DNA of 64,000 nt from Acidobacteriota bacterium. Lineage in GTDB: Bacteria; Acidobacteriota; Thermoanaerobaculia; Gp7-AA8. Under the pieces are notes generated by a model that worked only from the letters and a program-made list of their open reading frames with translations, was not told where the DNA came from and did no database searches. The stretch is from NCBI GenBank assembly GCA_021781455.1, contig JAJXWV010000007.1:1-64000 (forward strand). The letters run 5' to 3'. Position numbers and translations under genes: made by a program. Shown here one piece after another: positions 2,143-60,939 of this stretch (positions are counted from its first letter, which is position 1; each line of letters starts with the position of its first letter).

Positions 2143-2212
2143 GTCCTGAGTGCTGAGTCCTGAGCCGCTTACGTTCACTGCTCAGGACTCAGGACTCAGG
2201 ACTCAGGACTTA
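2143..2212. repeat. Inverted word array (GAGTCCTGA / TCAGGACTC)
   Basis: About 12 nt after the divergent ABC start, three GAGTCCTGAG-type words run in one direction. After a 16-nt spacer, at least four copies of CTCAGGACT follow in the opposite direction. The two halves can pair into a long hairpin. The same word occurs at 192-222 and at 27447-27519. The array separates the ABC gene (minus) from the sigma-factor gene (plus). Confidence 0.85.
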
Positions 2213-6635: not shown

Positions 6636-6677
6636 GGCGCGCGGGACGCAACTCGTCCGGCAGTCGCCTGGGTGTTT

Positions 6678-6760
6678 TTCACCACAGGGAACACAGAGAA
6701 CGCAGAGCACGAAGACGCTTGCGCTGATGTCTCTGTGCTCTCTGTGTTCTCCGTGGTGAA
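6678..6760. repeat. CACAGAG-type inverted repeat, short version
   Basis: TTCACCACAGGGAACACAGAG opens the element and a matching CTCTGTGTTCTCCGTGGTGAA half closes it, with only about 20 nt between the arms. The ends are nearly the same as the termini of the two 240-255 bp elements at 34454 and 47474, which makes this look like a core-less copy. It lies between the S46 peptidase and lepA. The rest of 6636-6922 holds no gene that I can see. Confidence 0.85.
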
Positions 6761-6922
6761 GAACACGCTCGCCAGCACGGGGGCTACCCACTGAGAATGA
6801 AGAAAGCCACCGCGCTTTCAACCGCCACCGCGCCACCGGGATGACAATCCCTGCCGTTCGTGTTAATCAGCCGGCACTGGAGAGCGCTTCGGCGCCTGCC
6901 CGCTCCCGCTGTCCGCTGAACG

Positions 6923-14998: not shown

Positions 14999-15026
14999 CT
15001 GCGGTCTGCGGTCTGCGGTCTGCGCT

Positions 15027-17129
15027 CTAGTGCGCCGCCGCCTGCTGCTGTTCTTCCTTCTTCTTCTTCGCTTCCGTGATGATCTTCTCCTGCAGGTTGC
15101 GCGGCACTTCCTCGTAGTGCGAGTACTCCATGTGGAAGCTTCCCCGGCCCTGCGTGATCGAGCGAAGGGTCGAACCGTAGGTCAGCATCTCCGACATCGG
15201 CACGCGTGCGTGGACCGTTTGCATGTCCTCCTCGGCGTCGACGCCCTCGACACGGCCGCGGCGGGAGTTGAGATCGCCCATCAGGTCGCCGATGTACTCA
15301 GCCGGCGCGCTGATGTTCACGTGCATGATCGGCTCGAGAAGCGTCGGCTTGCCCTGTTCCATGCCCTGCTGGAAGGCGAGCGACCCGGCGATCTTGAACG
15401 CCATTTCCGAAGAGTCGACGTCGTGATACTGGCCGTCCTTGAGGCGCACGCGGAAGTCCACCACCGGGTAGCCGGCCAGGAAGCCCTTGACGCGCGCTTC
15501 CTGGATGCCCTTTTCCACGGCCGGGATGTACTGGCGCGGGATCGAGCCGCCGAAGATCTCGTCGACGAATTCGAAGTCGCCGCCTCGCGGCAGCGGCTCC
15601 ATGGTGATCTTGCAGTCGGCGAACTGACCGTGGCCGCCGGACTGCTTCTTGTGGCGGCCATGCGCGTCGGATGATTTGGTGATCGTTTCGCGGTACGGCA
15701 CCTTCGGCGGATGCAGGATCACGTCGACGCCGTACTTCTTCTTCAGCTTGGCCACGACGATCTCGACGTGGAGCTGCCCCTGACCGCTGATCAGGAACTC
15801 CTTGGTCTGTTCGTCGCGCTGGAACTTGATGGTGGGGTCTTCTTCGATGACGCGGGCGATGGCGCTGGAGAGCTTGTCTTCGTCGCCGCGGGCCTTGGCC
15901 TCGACGGCGAAGGCGATCGCGGCCTCCGGATAGTCGAGGTGCTTGATGACGATGGAATGTTCTCTGGTGGCCAGAGTGTCGCCGGTGCGCACGTCTTTCA
16001 GCTTCGCCACGGCGCCGATGTCGCCGGCCTTGAGCTCGCTGACCGGCACCTGCTGCTTGCCCTGCAGAACCTGGAGCTTGCCGACGCGCTCCTCGTGATC
16101 GCGCGTGGTGTTCCAGTAGGTGGTGTCGGACTTGAACGTGCCCGAGTAAACGCGGAACAGCGACACGCGTCCGGAAAAGGGATCGGAGAAGGTCTTGAAG
16201 ACCAGCGCCGCCGGGAACGCTTCGGCACGGCGGTCGAAGGTGATGGGCTGTCCCTTCGGGTCGAGGCCCTCCACGGTCTTGCTCGTGTCCGCTGCAGGAA
16301 ACAGCGCCACGAAATTGTCGAGGATGGGCTGTGCGCCGATGTTGTGCGAGGCAGAGGCGAAGAGGACGGGGAAGATCTGGTTATGCGCCACTTCGCGCTG
16401 CAGCCCTTCCATGAGCTCTTCCTGCGAGAGGCCGCCCTGCTCGAAAAACTTCTCCATGAGGGTGTCGTCACCCTCGGCGACTTTCTCGATGAGCTTCTCG
16501 CGCCACTCGGTGGCGGAGGCCTTCATCTTCTCGGGGATGTCGACGGTCTCGAACTTTCCGGAGGCGTCGCTGGCGTAGCTGTACGCCTTCATGGCCACGA
16601 GATCGATGACGCCGCTGAAGTCCTTTTCCTCTCCGATGGGGAGCTGGATCGGGACGACGTTCTTCCCGAATTTTTTCTGCAGAGACTCGAGCGTGCGTGA
16701 GGAGGAGGCGCGCTCGCGATCCATCTTGTTGACGATGATCAGGCGCGGAAGCCCGAACTCGTCAGCGAACTTCCACATCTTCTCGGTGTTCACCTCGACG
16801 CCGGTCACTCCGCTGACCACCAGCGCGGCGGCATCGGCGACACGGATGGCCGTCTTCGCCTCCATCTGGAAAATGCCGAAGCCGGGAGTGTCGAGGAGAT
16901 TGACCTTGGTGTCTTTCCACTCCGCGAAGGCGACCGCGCTGGAGATGGAATGCTTACGCTCGATTTCGTCCGGATCGAAATCGGTGGTGGTAGTGCCGTC
17001 TTCGATCCGCCCGAGTCGCGTCGTGGCGCCGGCAGTGAACAGCAGTTGCGACACCAGCATCGTCTTACCGGTGTCGTTGTGACCGACCAAGACCACGTTG
17101 CGGATCTCGGAACCCGAATAGACTTTCAT
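15027..17129 (-). CDS. Elongation factor G paralogue (EF-G2-like translational GTPase)
   Basis: A 700-residue EF-G-family GTPase with all five domains. The P-loop is GHNDTGKT (16-23) and the G4 motif NKMD (134-137). The G3 motif reads DTPGF (80-84), so the His that activates water in canonical EF-G (DTPGH) is Phe here. Divergent switch residues and the VEGVDAEEDMQTVHARVP region place it with the second, non-canonical EF-G group (EF-G-2) rather than with the str-operon fusA. It stands alone, convergent to nothing but a terminator, and is not next to rpsL or tuf. Slow or altered GTP hydrolysis is an inference from the motif. Confidence 0.9.
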   Translation of the reverse strand: MKVYSGSEIRNVVLVGHNDTGKTMLVSQLLFTAGATTRLGRIEDGTTTTDFDPDEIERKHSISSAVAFAEWKDTKVNLLDTPGFGIFQMEAKTAIRVADAAALVVSGVTGVEVNTEKMWKFADEFGLPRLIIVNKMDRERASSSRTLESLQKKFGKNVVPIQLPIGEEKDFSGVIDLVAMKAYSYASDASGKFETVDIPEKMKASATEWREKLIEKVAEGDDTLMEKFFEQGGLSQEELMEGLQREVAHNQIFPVLFASASHNIGAQPILDNFVALFPAADTSKTVEGLDPKGQPITFDRRAEAFPAALVFKTFSDPFSGRVSLFRVYSGTFKSDTTYWNTTRDHEERVGKLQVLQGKQQVPVSELKAGDIGAVAKLKDVRTGDTLATREHSIVIKHLDYPEAAIAFAVEAKARGDEDKLSSAIARVIEEDPTIKFQRDEQTKEFLISGQGQLHVEIVVAKLKKKYGVDVILHPPKVPYRETITKSSDAHGRHKKQSGGHGQFADCKITMEPLPRGGDFEFVDEIFGGSIPRQYIPAVEKGIQEARVKGFLAGYPVVDFRVRLKDGQYHDVDSSEMAFKIAGSLAFQQGMEQGKPTLLEPIMHVNISAPAEYIGDLMGDLNSRRGRVEGVDAEEDMQTVHARVPMSEMLTYGSTLRSITQGRGSFHMEYSHYEEVPRNLQEKIITEAKKKKEEQQQAAAH

Positions 17130-21242: not shown

Positions 21243-21509
21243 ATGACGACCACGGCGAACAAGCAGATCGAGTTTCTGGCCCGGGCCATCGTGAACCGGC
21301 TGGAGGACCGCGGATTCGTCGAGTTTGGCGACGCCGAGGAAGGCATTCAGATCGCCGCACAGACTCTGGGCGACAACTTCGCCGCCGTCGACGCCTTCGA
21401 GCAGGAAGCGCGGAGCAGGCTGACCCGCGACCTCGGACGCGAGCCGCGAACCGATGAAGTCGAAGGCGAGATGCAGCGCCTCGCCGCCGAGCACAAGTTC
21501 ACGCTGTAG
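21243..21509 (+). CDS. DUF507-like small protein
   Basis: An 88-residue helical, charged protein. The opening [21 protein letters not shown] resembles the N-terminal part of DUF507 proteins, small cytoplasmic proteins of unknown function. TAGAAT ends 9 nt before the ATG (its first bases are the stop codon of the previous gene) and there is no Shine-Dalgarno, suggesting a leaderless start. The stop codon is followed at once by the large GGTTCCTC word array. Confidence 0.65.
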
Positions 21510-21690
21510 TTCCTCGGTTCCTCGGTTCCTCGGTTCCTCGGTTCCCACGATGCACCCGAGGAACCGAGGAACCAGGAACCAGGAACCAGGAACCAGGAAC
21601 CGAGGAACCAGGAACCGAGGAACCAGGAACCGAGGAACCAGGAACCAGGAACCGAGGAACCGAGGAACCAGGAACCATGAACCAGGACCA
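21510..21690. repeat. Inverted word array (GGTTCCTC / GAGGAACC) before pccB
   Basis: Four GGTTCCTC words are followed, after a short TTCCCACGATGCACC spacer, by more than fifteen copies of GAGGAACC or CAGGAACC in the opposite direction. The array fills the gap between the DUF507-like gene and pccB. Because its word has no stop in one frame, it extends the pccB reading frame upstream to 21454, but that extension is almost certainly not translated. The same word flanks the four-helix-bundle gene at 40233-40293 and 40701-40749. Confidence 0.9.
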
Positions 21691-21723
21691 CGAACCAAAA
21701 ACCCGAAGGAACGAAAAGCCGAA

Positions 21724-23898: not shown

Positions 23899-24162
23899 AT
23901 GGCTCATAAAAAGGGACAAGGCTCATCGCGCAACGGTCGCGATTCGCAGCCGAAGATGCTGGGCGTGAAGCGCTTTGCCGGCCAGTTCGTGACCGGCGGA
24001 TCGATCATCGTTCGCCAGCGCGGTACGAAGTTCTATCCCGGCGTGAACGTCGGTATCGGTCGCGATCACACGTTGTTCGCCAAGATCGACGGCATCGTGC
24101 AGTTCCAGGACAAAGGCGAGCGCGGCCGATTCGTGACCGTCACGCCCGTCGTAGCCCAGTAG
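23899..24162 (+). CDS. rpmA: 50S ribosomal protein L27
   Basis: An 87-residue protein whose N-terminus [16 protein letters not shown] reaches the peptidyl-transferase centre in other bacteria. There is no N-terminal cleavable extension of the Firmicutes type. [20 protein letters not shown] and the C-terminal beta part are standard. It lies 44 nt after rplU. Its stop codon overlaps the left arm of the inverted repeat at 24161-24233. Confidence 0.97.
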
Positions 24163-24233
24163 GGACGCGCAGCAGCGCGTCCGCAGCCTGGTTCGCGGGA
24201 TCGAGAGTTGCGGACGCGCTGCTGTGTGTCCCT
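24161..24233. repeat. 24-bp inverted repeat after rpmA
   Basis: The arms 24161-24184 and 24210-24233 (GGGACGCGCAGCAGCGCGTC type) pair over 24 bp with two G-T mismatches. The left arm contains the last base pair of the rpmA stop codon. A relative of the same word (GGACGCGCGGCGGCGCGTTC) lies at 33384 after the DUF481 gene. It may act as a terminator or mRNA-end protector. Confidence 0.8.
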
Positions 24234-27446: not shown

Positions 27447-27519
27447 GGAGTCCTGAGTGCTGAGTCCTGAGTCCCGAGTGGGCTCACGTACTCGCACTCA
27501 GCACTCAGGACTCAGGACT
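27447..27519. repeat. Inverted word array (GAGTCCTGA) up to the rlmH start
   Basis: GAGTCCTGAGTGCTGAG words run one way and ACTCAGCACTCAGGACT words the other, around a short GGGCTCACGTACTCG spacer. The right end abuts the ATG of rlmH directly. The same word is found at 192-222 and 2143-2212. Confidence 0.88.
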
Positions 27520-28439: not shown

Positions 28440-28500
28440 GGTTGCCAGGTCACCGAGTCACCCGGTCACCTGGTGACTCGGCGACCCGGTGACCGGTGAC
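28440..28500. repeat. Inverted word array (GGTCACC / GGTGACC)
   Basis: Three variants of GGTCACC run into three of GGTGACC. Together they form a long imperfect palindrome directly after the terminator and 12 nt before the holA start. It is one of the word-array loci; the word here is unique in the window. Confidence 0.82.
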
Positions 28501-29898: not shown

Positions 29899-29968
29899 GG
29901 TTACGGGGTTGCGCGGTTCCGCGCTGATCATGAGTGCGGACACCGCGGAACCTCGTAACCGCGCAACC
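29899..29968. repeat. 25-bp inverted repeat (GGTTACGGGGTTGCGCGG)
   Basis: The left arm 29899-29923 and right arm 29944-29968 pair almost perfectly around a 20-nt loop. The GGTTGCGCGGTT word is also the one found inside the nucleotidyltransferase gene at 56812-56890. It lies between holA and the MFS gene. Confidence 0.85.
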
Positions 29969-32041: not shown

Positions 32042-32098
32042 GAGTCACATCTGTCGGGCGCTTCGCACCCTCATACGCTGAGACGTGCGGCCCATGTC

Positions 32099-32302
32099 GG
32101 CGGCCTGACGGCCGCCAGGCGGCCTGACGGCCGCCGCTAAATTCTCGTCGGGCGCTTTCGCGCCCTCGCGATTCCCTGCGCAACGCGATTCCCTGCGCAA
32201 CGCGATTCCTGCGCAACGCGATTCCTGCGCGAAGGGAAGGCGGCGGAGCCGCCGAAAGCATTTAGCGGCGGCCGTCAGGCCGCCGGCGGCCGTCAGGCCG
32301 CC
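32099..32302. repeat. 204-bp element with 43-44-bp terminal inverted repeats
   Basis: The left arm 32099-32142 and right arm 32260-32302 are inverted copies that differ by a single-base indel. Each arm holds two GGCGGCCTGACGGCCGCC palindromes and ends in CGCTAAAT / ATTTAGCG. The core contains the hairpin GGGCGC-TTTC-GCGCCC and four tandem GCGCAACGCGATTCC-type copies. The remaining bases of the 32042-32477 gap hold only the tRNA-Asn promoter region (perfect TTGACA at 32430-32435). Confidence 0.92.
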
Positions 32303-32477
32303 GTCCGATCAGCACAGCTCAGCGTCTGAGCGCGCGAAGCGCGCGACAGATCATTCGCACCGGTTCAAGGCGTTCTATGTGACGCTTCCCGCGCGATCGG
32401 GTTGCGCCCTTCGTCATCCCTCATCCGATTTGACAACGAGCCTCGATTCACGCACTCTTTCGCCTCCCACCCGGTCT

Positions 32478-39548: not shown

Positions 39549-39631
39549 AGCGGGCAGCGGGTAGCGGGTAGGAGGACGAAGCGGGCAGCGGCACGGAGAG
39601 CCTGCCCGCTGCTCGCTACACGCCACCCGCT
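39549..39631. repeat. Word array with AGCGGGTAGCGGGTAG / CCCGCTACCCGCT
   Basis: Short array of AGCGGGCAGCGGGTAGCGG words, with inverted CCCGCTGCTCGCTACACGCCACCCGC at the other end. It lies between the lyase gene and the fumarase beta gene. The same word, more regular, occurs at 49583-49679. Confidence 0.75.
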
Positions 39632-40207: not shown

Positions 40208-40232
40208 TGGGTCCTTCTTGAGTTGTGGTTGC

Positions 40233-40293
40233 TAGTTCCTGGTTCCTGGTTCCTGGTTCCTGGTTCCTGGTTCCTGGTTCCTCGGTTCCTCGG
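40233..40293. repeat. Tandem GGTTCCTGGTTCC array, left flank of the four-helix-bundle gene
   Basis: Seven GGTTCCT words in one direction (with two GGTTCCTC variants at the inner end). It is inverted relative to the array at 40701-40749, so the 40303-40689 gene lies between oppositely oriented arrays. The same word fills the gap before pccB at 21510. Confidence 0.88.
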
Positions 40294-40302
40294 TGTTTTC
40301 GG

Positions 40303-40689
40303 TTAGGGGCGAGGGGTTGCGTACTCATGCGAGTCACGTTCGACGTATCGCATCAGTGAATCGAGTCCTTTGCCGATGCTCTTGATCTCACCCAGGATTG
40401 CCGCGGCCTGAGAATCGAGGAAACCGAGGCGTGTTGCGAGTTCGAGCTGCGTTTCCACTTCGAAGGCGGACCCGAGAGCGTTCTCGAGAAAATGAAACGT
40501 CTGCTTGTGGGTCTTACGGCCGTACCCCTCAGCGATGTTGCTCGAGATCGAAACGGAAGCACGTCTTAGTTGCTGCGCGAGCCCGTATTGCTCTCGCTTC
40601 GGAAAGGCCTCCGTCAATTCATAAACGCGCACCGCGATATCCATGGCCATCTGCCAAACCTGAAGATCGCGATACGAAGCTTTAGTCAC
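40303..40689 (-). CDS. Four-helix-bundle protein (23S rRNA intervening-sequence protein family)
   Basis: A 128-residue protein of the S23/four-helix-bundle family: YRDLQVWQMAMDIAVRVYELTEAFP, LAQQLRRASVSISSNIAEGYGR and a helical C-terminus. Members are often encoded in rRNA intervening sequences or next to repeats and have no known enzymatic role. Here the gene splits the class I fumarase alpha and beta genes and is flanked on both sides by inverted GGTTCC arrays, which looks like an inserted cassette. Confidence 0.9.
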   Translation of the reverse strand: MTKASYRDLQVWQMAMDIAVRVYELTEAFPKREQYGLAQQLRRASVSISSNIAEGYGRKTHKQTFHFLENALGSAFEVETQLELATRLGFLDSQAAAILGEIKSIGKGLDSLMRYVERDSHEYATPRP

Positions 40690-40700
40690 AGAAAAACTCC

Positions 40701-40749
40701 GAACCCGAGGAACCGAGGAACCCGAGGAACCCGAGGAACCCGAGGAACT
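40701..40749. repeat. Tandem GAGGAACC array, right flank of the four-helix-bundle gene
   Basis: Five GAGGAACC words, in opposite orientation to the 40233-40293 array. Its last bases touch the stop codon of the fumarase alpha gene (CTA at 40748-40750). Confidence 0.88.
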
Positions 40750-49564: not shown

Positions 49565-49582
49565 CGGGCGCCGAGTATAGCG

Positions 49583-49679
49583 AGCGGGTAGCGGGTAGCG
49601 GGTAGCGGGTAGGAGGGAGATTCGCCGGGTCCCCTGGCCGCTGCCCCCTACCCGCTACCCGCTACCCGCTACCCGCTCG
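49583..49679. repeat. Inverted word array (AGCGGGT / ACCCGCT)
   Basis: Four AGCGGGT words and, after a 37-nt spacer, four ACCCGCT words in inverted orientation. It fills the gap between asnB and the M28 gene, and its last base is one base before the TACAAT -10 of that gene. Confidence 0.9.
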
Positions 49680-51940: not shown

Positions 51941-52087
51941 GTCATTCTGAGCCGAGTGGTTGGGTGGAGCGGCGGAGCGCGGCGGGGGGTCTCCAGCGGG
52001 CAGATCGTCCCGGTGAGAGACTCTTCGCCGCGCTCCGCCGCTCCACCCGCCCTTCCCACCCCGCGGCTCCGCCGGCTCAGAGTGACG
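51941..52087. repeat. 147-bp inverted-repeat element (copy 2 of the 37997 element)
   Basis: The ends GTCATTCTGAGCCG and CGGCTCAGAGTGAC pair with one mismatch. Inner arms GGGTGGAGCGGCGGAGCGCGG and CGCGCTCCGCCGCTCCACCC pair perfectly over about 20 bp. Blocks are shared with 37997-38110. No gene in 51926-52147. Confidence 0.85.
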
Positions 52088-56229: not shown

Positions 56230-57336
56230 TCAGGCGATCGGCGCGATCACGAGGCCGTTCTCGAACCGGCAGTCCCCGTCGCGTGGAATTGACGGCTCAT
56301 CGCGACAGATGACCGCGTTCTCGAACGAGCGGGGCATCGCGATCTCCACGCCATGACCAACGATGCAGGAAGTCAGTTTCGATCCGCGTGCGATCCGGCA
56401 GTCGTTCCAGACGAACGAGGCATCGAGATCGCCTTCCACGACAGAGCGGCGGCCGACAGTCGATCGCCGAGCGGTGCCGCTGATCCGAGCCGTAGTGTCG
56501 ATGATCGAGCCGGTGTCGACGCGTGATCCGGCCGGAACATCGACCTTACCGGCGATCATCGCCTCGGCGAGTGCTCGCGACGCGGCCAGGTAACGCTGCG
56601 GTGTACCGATGTCGAACCACAGCCCGTCGTCGACGATCGCGGCGAGCGTCTCGCGCCCGCCGGCGATCAGCGGCCGGTACGTGTCCTCCACGATTCCGGA
56701 GACCTCGCGATCAGGCAGCTCACGAAGAATTCGCGCGCTGATGCAGTGCGAGCCGGAGAACATGAGCGCCTCGCCGGTGCCGGTGCCGAATCCCGTGACC
56801 CGGCCGCCCACCCGGTTGCGCGGTTGCGAGGTTGCGCGGTTGCGAGGTGTCTGGTCTCGTGACCTCGAAACCTCGTGACCGCGTGACCCCTCTTCAAAGT
56901 ACACGGCCGTGAAGCAGTCTCCTTCGGGAGGATGGCGAAGTGTCAGGGCGGCGAGAGCGTCGGTGTCGCGGCGCGCTGCCAGCAGATCGTCGTAGGGTGG
57001 GAACTGGATCGTGTCGCCGTTGACGAGGAAGAAGTCGCGCTCGTGCTCGAGCAGCGGCCGCACCCTGCGGATCGCGCCCCCGGTGCCGAGGATTTCCTCT
57101 TCGTGCGAGAACGAGAAGCGGCAGCGGCCCGCATATTCGTCGCGGAGGAAGCGCTCGATCGGCTCGCCGAGGTGGTGAAGGTTGACGATGATCTCGTCGA
57201 TGCCGAACCGCACGAGGTTCTCGACCGCGTATGCGATCAGCGGCCGGTTGCACAGCGGCACGAGCGGCTTCGGCAACGTCCAGGTCAGGGGTCGCAGCCG
57301 CGTGCCGAAGCCGGCGGCGAGAATCAGGGCTTTCAT
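56230..57336 (-). CDS. Nucleotidyltransferase (sugar-phosphate) with left-handed beta helix, carrying an in-frame repeat insertion
   Basis: A 368-residue NDP-sugar pyrophosphorylase-like protein: LILAAGFGTRLRPLTWTLPKPLVPL (nucleotide binding), GTGGAIRRV, NGDTIQF and a C-terminal hexapeptide-like segment. The start MKALILAAG at 57336 is chosen; upstream in-frame codons lie in the 57340 repeat. About residues 149-175 (GSRGHEVSRSRDQTP... to ...QPRNRVG) have no counterpart in the fold and are encoded by the word array at 56812-56890, in frame. Such a 26-residue insertion is Arg-rich and repeat-derived, and it lies between two strands, so the enzyme may survive. Confidence 0.85.
   Translation of the reverse strand: MKALILAAGFGTRLRPLTWTLPKPLVPLCNRPLIAYAVENLVRFGIDEIIVNLHHLGEPIERFLRDEYAGRCRFSFSHEEEILGTGGAIRRVRPLLEHERDFFLVNGDTIQFPPYDDLLAARRDTDALAALTLRHPPEGDCFTAVYFEEGSRGHEVSRSRDQTPRNRATSQPRNRVGGRVTGFGTGTGEALMFSGSHCISARILRELPDREVSGIVEDTYRPLIAGGRETLAAIVDDGLWFDIGTPQRYLAASRALAEAMIAGKVDVPAGSRVDTGSIIDTTARISGTARRSTVGRRSVVEGDLDASFVWNDCRIARGSKLTSCIVGHGVEIAMPRSFENAVICRDEPSIPRDGDCRFENGLVIAPIA
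56812..56890. repeat. Word array inside a coding sequence (GGTTGCGCGGTTGCGAGG)
   Basis: Four GGTTGCG-type words (56814-56847) are followed by GTGACCTCGAAACCTCGTGACCG-type inverted words (56859-56890). The block is translated within the nucleotidyltransferase frame on the minus strand without a stop. The same GGTTGCGCGGTT word occurs in the gap at 29899-29968. Confidence 0.9.
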
Positions 57337-57339
57337 GAA

Positions 57340-57401
57340 GGTGTCGGGTGTCGGGTCTCGGGTGTCGGTTTCCTGAAACCCGACACCTGACACCCGACAC
57401 C
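57340..57401. repeat. Inverted word array (GGTGTCGGG / CCCGACACC)
   Basis: Three GGTGTCGGG-type words and their inverted copies around a TTTCCTGAAA centre. It fills the whole gap between the CYTH gene and the nucleotidyltransferase gene, starting 3 nt before the latter's ATG and ending in the CYTH stop codon. Confidence 0.9.
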
Positions 57402-57967
57402 TATCCCGAGGTCAACTGGTCTGCAGGGAAAACCATGTGCTCCGGCAGGTCCGCGCGGGTGCGGCGGGCCTGCCGGTACAGATCGGCATAGGTCTGGCGA
57501 ATGGCCTGATCCATGTTCATGCCAAGCTCGGCCGAGATCGTGCGGATCGTGTCGATGTTTCCCTCGATCTCGAAGTAATCGCCGATGGGAGTGCGGTCGA
57601 TGACCACCTCGACGTCGCGAACGTGCCAGACCTCCCGGTACTTCTGGTAGCGGAAGACAGGCTTGAACCCGAGCGAATCGAGGAGCTGGATGGCCAGCTC
57701 GAAGCTCTCCACGCCTGTCTGCACTTCTTCCCGCGATTTGATGCCGCCTTCGATCGACATCGGTCCTTTGTACGTGGCGATGGAGTACTTGCCGAAGCGG
57801 CGCACGCGCAGCAGGGCGCCCTTGGTGCGCAGCTCGCCGCGGCGGTCGAGGACGATGTTGTCTTCGAACGTCTCGGCGTAGAGCCGTTGCGCGCTGAGGT
57901 CGTGCAGCTTGCGCGTCAGCTCGGCGCGATCGCGCAAGGGAAACTTCACTTCGATTTCCTGGGCCAT
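57401..57967 (-). CDS. CYTH-domain protein (class IV adenylate cyclase / triphosphatase-like)
   Basis: A 188-residue triphosphate-tunnel enzyme: EIEVKF at 4-9 is the ExExK signature, and VRRFGKYSIATYKGP and YFEIEGN supply further tunnel residues. The related proteins act as CyaB-type adenylate cyclases or as inorganic or thiamine triphosphatases; the substrate is not decided by sequence. It ends in the word array before the nucleotidyltransferase gene. Confidence 0.88.
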   Translation of the reverse strand: MAQEIEVKFPLRDRAELTRKLHDLSAQRLYAETFEDNIVLDRRGELRTKGALLRVRRFGKYSIATYKGPMSIEGGIKSREEVQTGVESFELAIQLLDSLGFKPVFRYQKYREVWHVRDVEVVIDRTPIGDYFEIEGNIDTIRTISAELGMNMDQAIRQTYADLYRQARRTRADLPEHMVFPADQLTSG

Positions 57968-60817: not shown

Positions 60818-60939
60818 AGTGCTGAGTACTGAGTGCTGAGTACTGAGTGCTGAGTACTGAGTGGACTCGTTCCAACTCAGTGCCCGACTCAGTACTCAGC
60901 ACTCAGTACTCAGCACTCAGTACTCAGTACTCAGCACTC
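60818..60939. repeat. Inverted word array (AGTGCTGAGTACTG / CAGTACTCAGCACT)
   Basis: Three AGTGCTGAGTACTG units, a 13-nt ACTCGTTCC-type spacer and then about six inverted CAGTACTCAGCACT units. It fills the gap between gap and pgk and ends a few bases from the gap stop codon. It is a variant of the GAGTCCTGA family. Confidence 0.9.

Follow-up and report, generated by a model that had tools for sequence, protein, structure and literature searches.

Inverted arrays of short tandem words in an Acidobacteriota genome as probable ends of small mobile palindromes associated with IVP genes

What are the inverted arrays of short repeated words that recur along this Acidobacteriota genome? We consider that they probably form the inverted ends of small mobile palindromes, a superfamily of the intervening-sequence (IVS) type, in which copies carrying an IVP gene (PF05635, 23S rRNA-intervening sequence protein) would be the full elements and the short-loop hairpins their empty, non-autonomous derivatives. 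The repeated hairpins resemble the termini of small insertion elements such as those known from within ribosomal RNA genes, because IVP genes in several bacterial phyla sit between such repeats. Our starting point was a window of 64,000 nucleotides, the whole stretch analysed, which belongs to the draft genome of a soil bacterium (Acidobacteriota, Thermoanaerobaculia) totalling 4.88 Mb in 90 contigs; about 1.5 Mb (about 31%) of this genome was read in stretches. Gene calls were home-made and gene starts are approximate, the compared taxa are draft assemblies except for the plasmids, and the main comparison was with G001, a congener and sister species of the window organism.

The arrays are genuine and greatly exceed chance expectation. 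Within 443 kb of the window's genome, 133 tandem runs of period 6–10 were found, against none in a dinucleotide shuffle, and 101 of these 133 runs have period 7; the same 443 kb contains 111 long hairpins, against none in a 200-kb shuffle. All nine of the window stretches that were folded gave RNA folding z-scores between −4.0 and −12.0, and no shuffle was equally stable. A preliminary description of this DNA had reported one architecture in at least nine gaps, each array able to fold into a long hairpin, and both points were borne out, with arrays present at every position that it named (from 2134–2211 to 60818–60939). Its further statement that each locus has a different word stands only in part: different words do exist, but they are shared families and not one per locus, the word ACTCAGN (equivalent to AGTNCTG) accounting for 61 of the 101 period-7 runs. 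AGTNCTG is the dominant word family, with 274 pattern matches genome-wide. Rfam matches in the window comprise two tRNAs and nothing else.

Within the window, an AGTNCTG hairpin with arms of 32 nt and a loop of 14 nt (2134–2211) separates an ABC-ATPase gene from a divergent ECF sigma gene, and the matching gap of the sister species holds other words. Another AGTNCTG hairpin (27449–27519) fills the whole distance from the stop codon of a sigma-54 activator gene to the ATG of a SPOUT methyltransferase gene, and a long AGTRCTG hairpin (60818–60939) has 45-nt arms around a 24-nt loop. A GGTCACC-type hairpin is located at 28440–28494, a GGTTGCGC hairpin at 29899–29968, and AGCGGGT hairpins at 39549–39628, where the sister species has a GACGAATGGGACC hairpin, and at 49581–49679, between divergent genes and with 39-nt arms according to a gapless repeat finder. 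The GGTGTCG hairpin at 57339–57402 stands immediately 5′ of a start codon and is replaced in the sister gap by a GGGACGCGC REP pair, while a GGTTCCTC array is accompanied by a long inverted AGGAACC array at 21509–21700; REP-like inverted repeats occupy the sister counterparts of both 21509–21700 and 49581–49679. Conservation of the architecture without conservation of the word, as originally described, holds even at orthologous gaps of sister species. Lone arrays also occur, one of ACTCAGG at 195–219, an arm without a partner, and a single arm of CTGCGGT at 14999–15028. The arrays had been placed in gaps, which is true of most; the GGTTGCG/GGTCACG hairpin at 56812–56890 lies inside a sugar nucleotidyltransferase gene (56230–57336, minus strand). 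Finally, what had been listed as an array near 40233 and 40701 does consist of inverted words, but it is a single element: a GGTTCCT array (40226–40290) and an inverted GGAACCCGAG array (40701–40748) are its two arms, and in the loop lies a small IVP gene (40303–40689, minus strand, with a tentative GTG start) that matches PF05635 at 1.9e-36, the query carrying three extra N-terminal residues outside the matched stretch.

Arm lengths group around 31 nt irrespective of the word. A set of 235 tandem-word hairpins, drawn from the window's genome, its relatives and foreign loci, includes 210 of period 7 and 19 of period 8; the median arm is 29–31 nt in each period group, and words other than AGTNCTG likewise peak at 30–32 nt. 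The commonest arm of the AGTNCTG family, AGT(NCTGAGT)4, measures 31 nt and is also found in Chloroflexi and other phyla. The order AGTNCTG–loop–CAGNACT was matched 715 times and the reverse order never, in a count that covers 13 distinct genomes (14 handles, two of which are apparently one genome) and includes overlapping registers. When the 15 families with three or more copies are taken one by one, 211 of 213 copies have the polarity of their family. In 21 of 26 families, G outnumbers C in the 5′ arm. Many arms recur unchanged from locus to locus, yet their loops resemble one another no more than shuffled loops do, and no loop homology between copies rose above shuffles. The two arms of a hairpin are weakly related at the free N positions of the word, and at some loci they differ in length. 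In G004 (L164, L201, L209 and L212), AGTNCTG arms are never less than 30 bp apart, opposite arms are about 100–700 bp apart, and in one case an IVP gene lies between them; the long-loop AGTNCTG pairs in L314, L031 and L047 have REP-like sequence nested inside them, in which no remnant of an IVP gene could be recognised. Three contigs of the Chloroflexi NC_groundwater_1442 (L051, L053 and L058) carry many perfect fold-back palindromes with loops of 0–7 nt, some at contig ends, which are possibly chimeric assembly artefacts.

The association with IVP genes extends well beyond the window. Inverted word arrays flank all five IVP genes in the fetched Acidobacteriota DNA, and inverted repeats flank 16 of 20 IVP genes on plasmids (cyanobacteria, Azospirillum and Gemmatirosa), where each locus has its own word, for example CAGGTGA, GGGTGTA, TAGGGAG, AAAAGGG or AGAGGAC; one further plasmid locus, L241, also scores once wider flanks are taken. 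Of the 27 distinct IVP genes on IMG/VR contigs, 21 have inverted repeats on both sides, compared with 0 of 27 after shuffling, some of these loci sharing a word family and hence not being independent. The threshold of 14 was chosen after the first examples and before the IMG/VR sample, and 10 of the 52 IVP genes show no clear repeat at this threshold. The flanking repeats are mostly period-7 words that differ between loci. Among control genes, the threshold was reached by 1 of 20 plasmid neighbours and by 12 of 371 other genes of the window's genome, namely five RAYT/Y1 genes with non-tandem ends and seven genes between or beside word arrays. Three IVP genes occur in the 1.5 Mb of the window's genome, with the words GGTTCCT, AGCGGGT and AGTNCTG, and all three words also form short hairpins there. 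Most hairpin copies carry no IVP gene, and for several words of this genome none was found in the roughly 31% that was read. In the sister species, the gap that corresponds to the IVP element of the window holds a short hairpin only. On plasmids of Anabaena sp. 90, Pseudanabaena and Picosynechococcus (L239, L241 and L253), IVP genes are located between cas6 and cas4, and between cas10 and cmr3, and are surrounded by inverted heptamer arrays, more weakly so in L253; these genes look like insertions in CRISPR operons and not like CRISPR components.

Comparison with relatives revealed both filled and empty sites. The in-gene hairpin at 56812–56890 lengthens its gene by 84 bp in frame, the sister species having that gene without interruption, and the hairpin at 29899 faces a sister gap of just 13 bp. 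Whole-unit insertion fits both sites better than growth in place. Likewise, the S17-L14, L23-L2, L24-L5 and S10-L3 gaps of ribosomal-protein genes are found both filled and empty with conserved leaders. The idea that the loop is former target DNA was ruled out, as the empty in-gene site has no room for a loop sequence. No excision or transposition event was seen at the compared sites, and no target duplication was recognised.

Where do the hairpins persist? Of the 111 long hairpins, 104 are intergenic, while genes cover 86% of the sequence by our home-made calls. Tandem-word hairpins occupy tandem, convergent and divergent gaps in the proportion 68/4/8, typically within 10 bases of the upstream stop codon. 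The str-S10-spc ribosomal-protein operon, its genes named from protein sequences, is full of hairpins; in 18 relatives, the S17-L14, L24-L5, S10-L3, L30-L15, S3-L16 and L23-L2 gaps carry hairpins of different words according to genus, or none, and the leader of the downstream gene is conserved at hairpin-bearing and empty gaps alike. Over 63 mapped gaps, hairpin presence in two sister species is weakly associated (p = 0.045). For the AGTNCTG family shared by G000 and G001, 334 of 336 skeleton positions agree, an upper estimate because the arm-extraction pattern favours skeleton matches; the N position agrees in 24 of 56 cases, and loops are near chance. At the L23-L2 gap of L177 and L183, GTAG-type REP pairs start on the stop codon of L23, the stop TAG being the TAG of GTAG, which suggests that REPs insert at stop codons.

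Three other explanations deserve consideration. The arrays might be REP or REPIN elements with unusual arms, moved by RAYT (Y1) transposases; they do share with REPINs and with GTAG and CGTC REP dimers the conserved inverted arms, variable spacers, extragenic position, high copy number per genome and family turnover (PMC3116915, PMC3733652), the window's genome contains 14 Y1 genes, and genuine REP pairs coexist with the tandem-word hairpins. However, no GTAG/CGTC tag or in-arm REP palindrome is evident in the AGTNCTG arm ends and flanks read, the arms consisting of tandem words, and tandem-word arms enclose none of the 14 Y1 genes, which are flanked by non-tandem repeats or by none that are clear. 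Moreover, the Omnitrophota genome G053 has hairpins and no Y1 match, and convergent gaps account for a larger share of REP-type hairpins (27 tandem/13 convergent) than of tandem-word hairpins (68/4). We therefore regard this explanation as improbable. The RAYT-like gene for which a search had been proposed is replaced by IVP as the associated gene, and the arrays do not all belong to a single REP family, nor did assembly create them, since separately assembled genomes have hairpins in the same gaps and finished plasmids show this structure too. It is similarly doubtful that the hairpins are host-selected RNA structures, such as processing, stability or decoupling signals with fixed sites and drifting sequence. 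The stems do adjoin stop codons, the same gaps hold hairpins in many genera, and orthologous arms keep their skeleton with loops near chance; yet many genera have these gaps empty, the skeleton is kept by sequence and not by compensatory change, T-tracts are absent, one hairpin is inserted in a gene, and IVP genes lie inside some. Selection for RNA pairing was rejected because the coding strand shows no G-U excess (GT:AC 70:64), and so were intrinsic terminators, as at least five T in 9 nt follow the stem in just 3 of 81 cases and 4 of 80 hairpins lie in convergent gaps. Nevertheless, some copies may have been domesticated.

The preliminary description favoured a mechanism (template switching, slippage at replication or a targeted enzyme) over one mobile element. 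Local construction by slippage or template switching would account for the tandem words, the unequal arm lengths at some loci and the single arms, but we consider it very improbable as the origin of the arrays: the same words recur across phyla, many loci have identical arms around unrelated loops, the free N of one arm corresponds only loosely to that of the other, the polarity is absolute, arms are near 31 nt for periods 7 and 8 alike, and the filled and empty sites show unit insertions. Slippage may still vary the copy number. Templating of both break ends by a reverse transcriptase was also discarded, as RVT_1 is absent from several hairpin-bearing relatives. The data point to mobile-element-like families with an associated protein.

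How might such mobile palindromes work? We propose an element consisting of an arm of tandem words of about 7 nt (about 31 nt in all), a loop and the inverted arm, and we set out the steps in decreasing order of support. Elements insert as units, as the filled and empty sites show. They persist mostly between co-directional genes just past a stop codon and turn over, related species having different words in the same gap; by analogy with IVSs, tolerance after stop codons might be aided by RNase III cutting the transcribed stem. We know of no enzyme activity of IVP, and its association with the arrays suggests a mobility or word-recognition protein that, supplied by full copies, may recognise the word and act in trans on empty copies. 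Last, and speculatively, the arm of about 31 nt, which in the main family presents five AGT triplets at 7-nt spacing, would match a five-subunit ring. The nearest solved relative, 2gsc, has five chains in its entry, and a toroidal homopentamer is cited in PMC4990558. Tentatively, and with less confidence than in the mobile palindromes themselves, we suggest that IVPs may be rings that recognise the words of a mobile-palindrome superfamily which spans phyla and includes the rRNA IVSs and the cyanobacterial heptamer repeats, a pentameric ring reading about five units and so setting the arm length and the 7-nt spacing, with each family changing its word together with its own IVP. Copies with identical arms have different loops, which is not what copying and pasting of whole elements would by itself produce; loss and refilling of the interior, or exchange between arms, is possible.

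The closest known systems are the IVSs of 23S rRNA in Coxiella, Leptospira and Salmonella. The Coxiella IVS has a 28-bp stem formed by terminal inverted repeats and three tandem heptamers (GACAGAT) before an S23p ORF in the loop, and it is excised from the RNA by RNase III (PMC4990558). Terminal inverted repeats with a long stem (about 28 bp in the IVS), a loop that in some copies contains an IVP/S23p ORF and, in Coxiella, heptameric tandem repeats are features shared with our arrays. In contrast, IVSs lie in helices 9, 25 or 45 of 23S rRNA, whereas the window copies are intergenic or in a protein gene, and here the copies are numerous, occupy intergenic and operonic gaps, fall into many word families per genome and are mostly empty. 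As the window copies lie outside rRNA, we call them IVS-type and not IVSs in the strict sense. The Beggiatoaceae TAACTGA repeats (PMC4679880) and the cyanobacterial STRR heptamers, the latter compared by description, are also tandem heptamers in gaps or extragenic DNA, including ribosomal-protein operons, with a patchy distribution across phyla, but they have been described as direct repeats and not as paired inverted arms. In the open-access literature, where an existing account could be missed, we found no description of this element class and no paper on the word strings themselves.

A part in mobility was suggested for the IVS ORF long ago, and in over 25 years neither a function nor a means of movement has been established for IVSs and the S23/IVP protein (PMC4990558). 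The link with IVP gives this old orphan protein family a likely and testable role, and the IVP–heptamer association in Acidobacteriota, Cyanobacteria, Gemmatimonadota and Alphaproteobacteria joins rRNA IVSs, heptamer repeats and many unexplained intergenic hairpins. For any IVP gene, the prediction is that its protein binds the word flanking that gene, and where annotation places an IVP gene beside a CRISPR operon, the gene may be an inserted element and not a CRISPR part.

Other repeats accompany the arrays in the window. Non-tandem REP-type hairpins are present at 24161 and 51962. The hairpin families at 24161–24233, 51962–52048 and 6672–6766 are, as listed, a GGGACGCGCAGCAGCGCGTCC REP pair, a GGAGCGGYGGAGCGCGGCG element whose loop is conserved in other copies and a CACAGAGAACGCAGAG hairpin. 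At 32098–32304, nested GCGGCGGCC inverted repeats enclose four CGCGATTCC(C)TGCGCAA copies, and the outer repeat is similar to the terminal repeat of a RAYT gene in L135 (ATTTAGCGGCGGCCGTGAGGCCGCCG).
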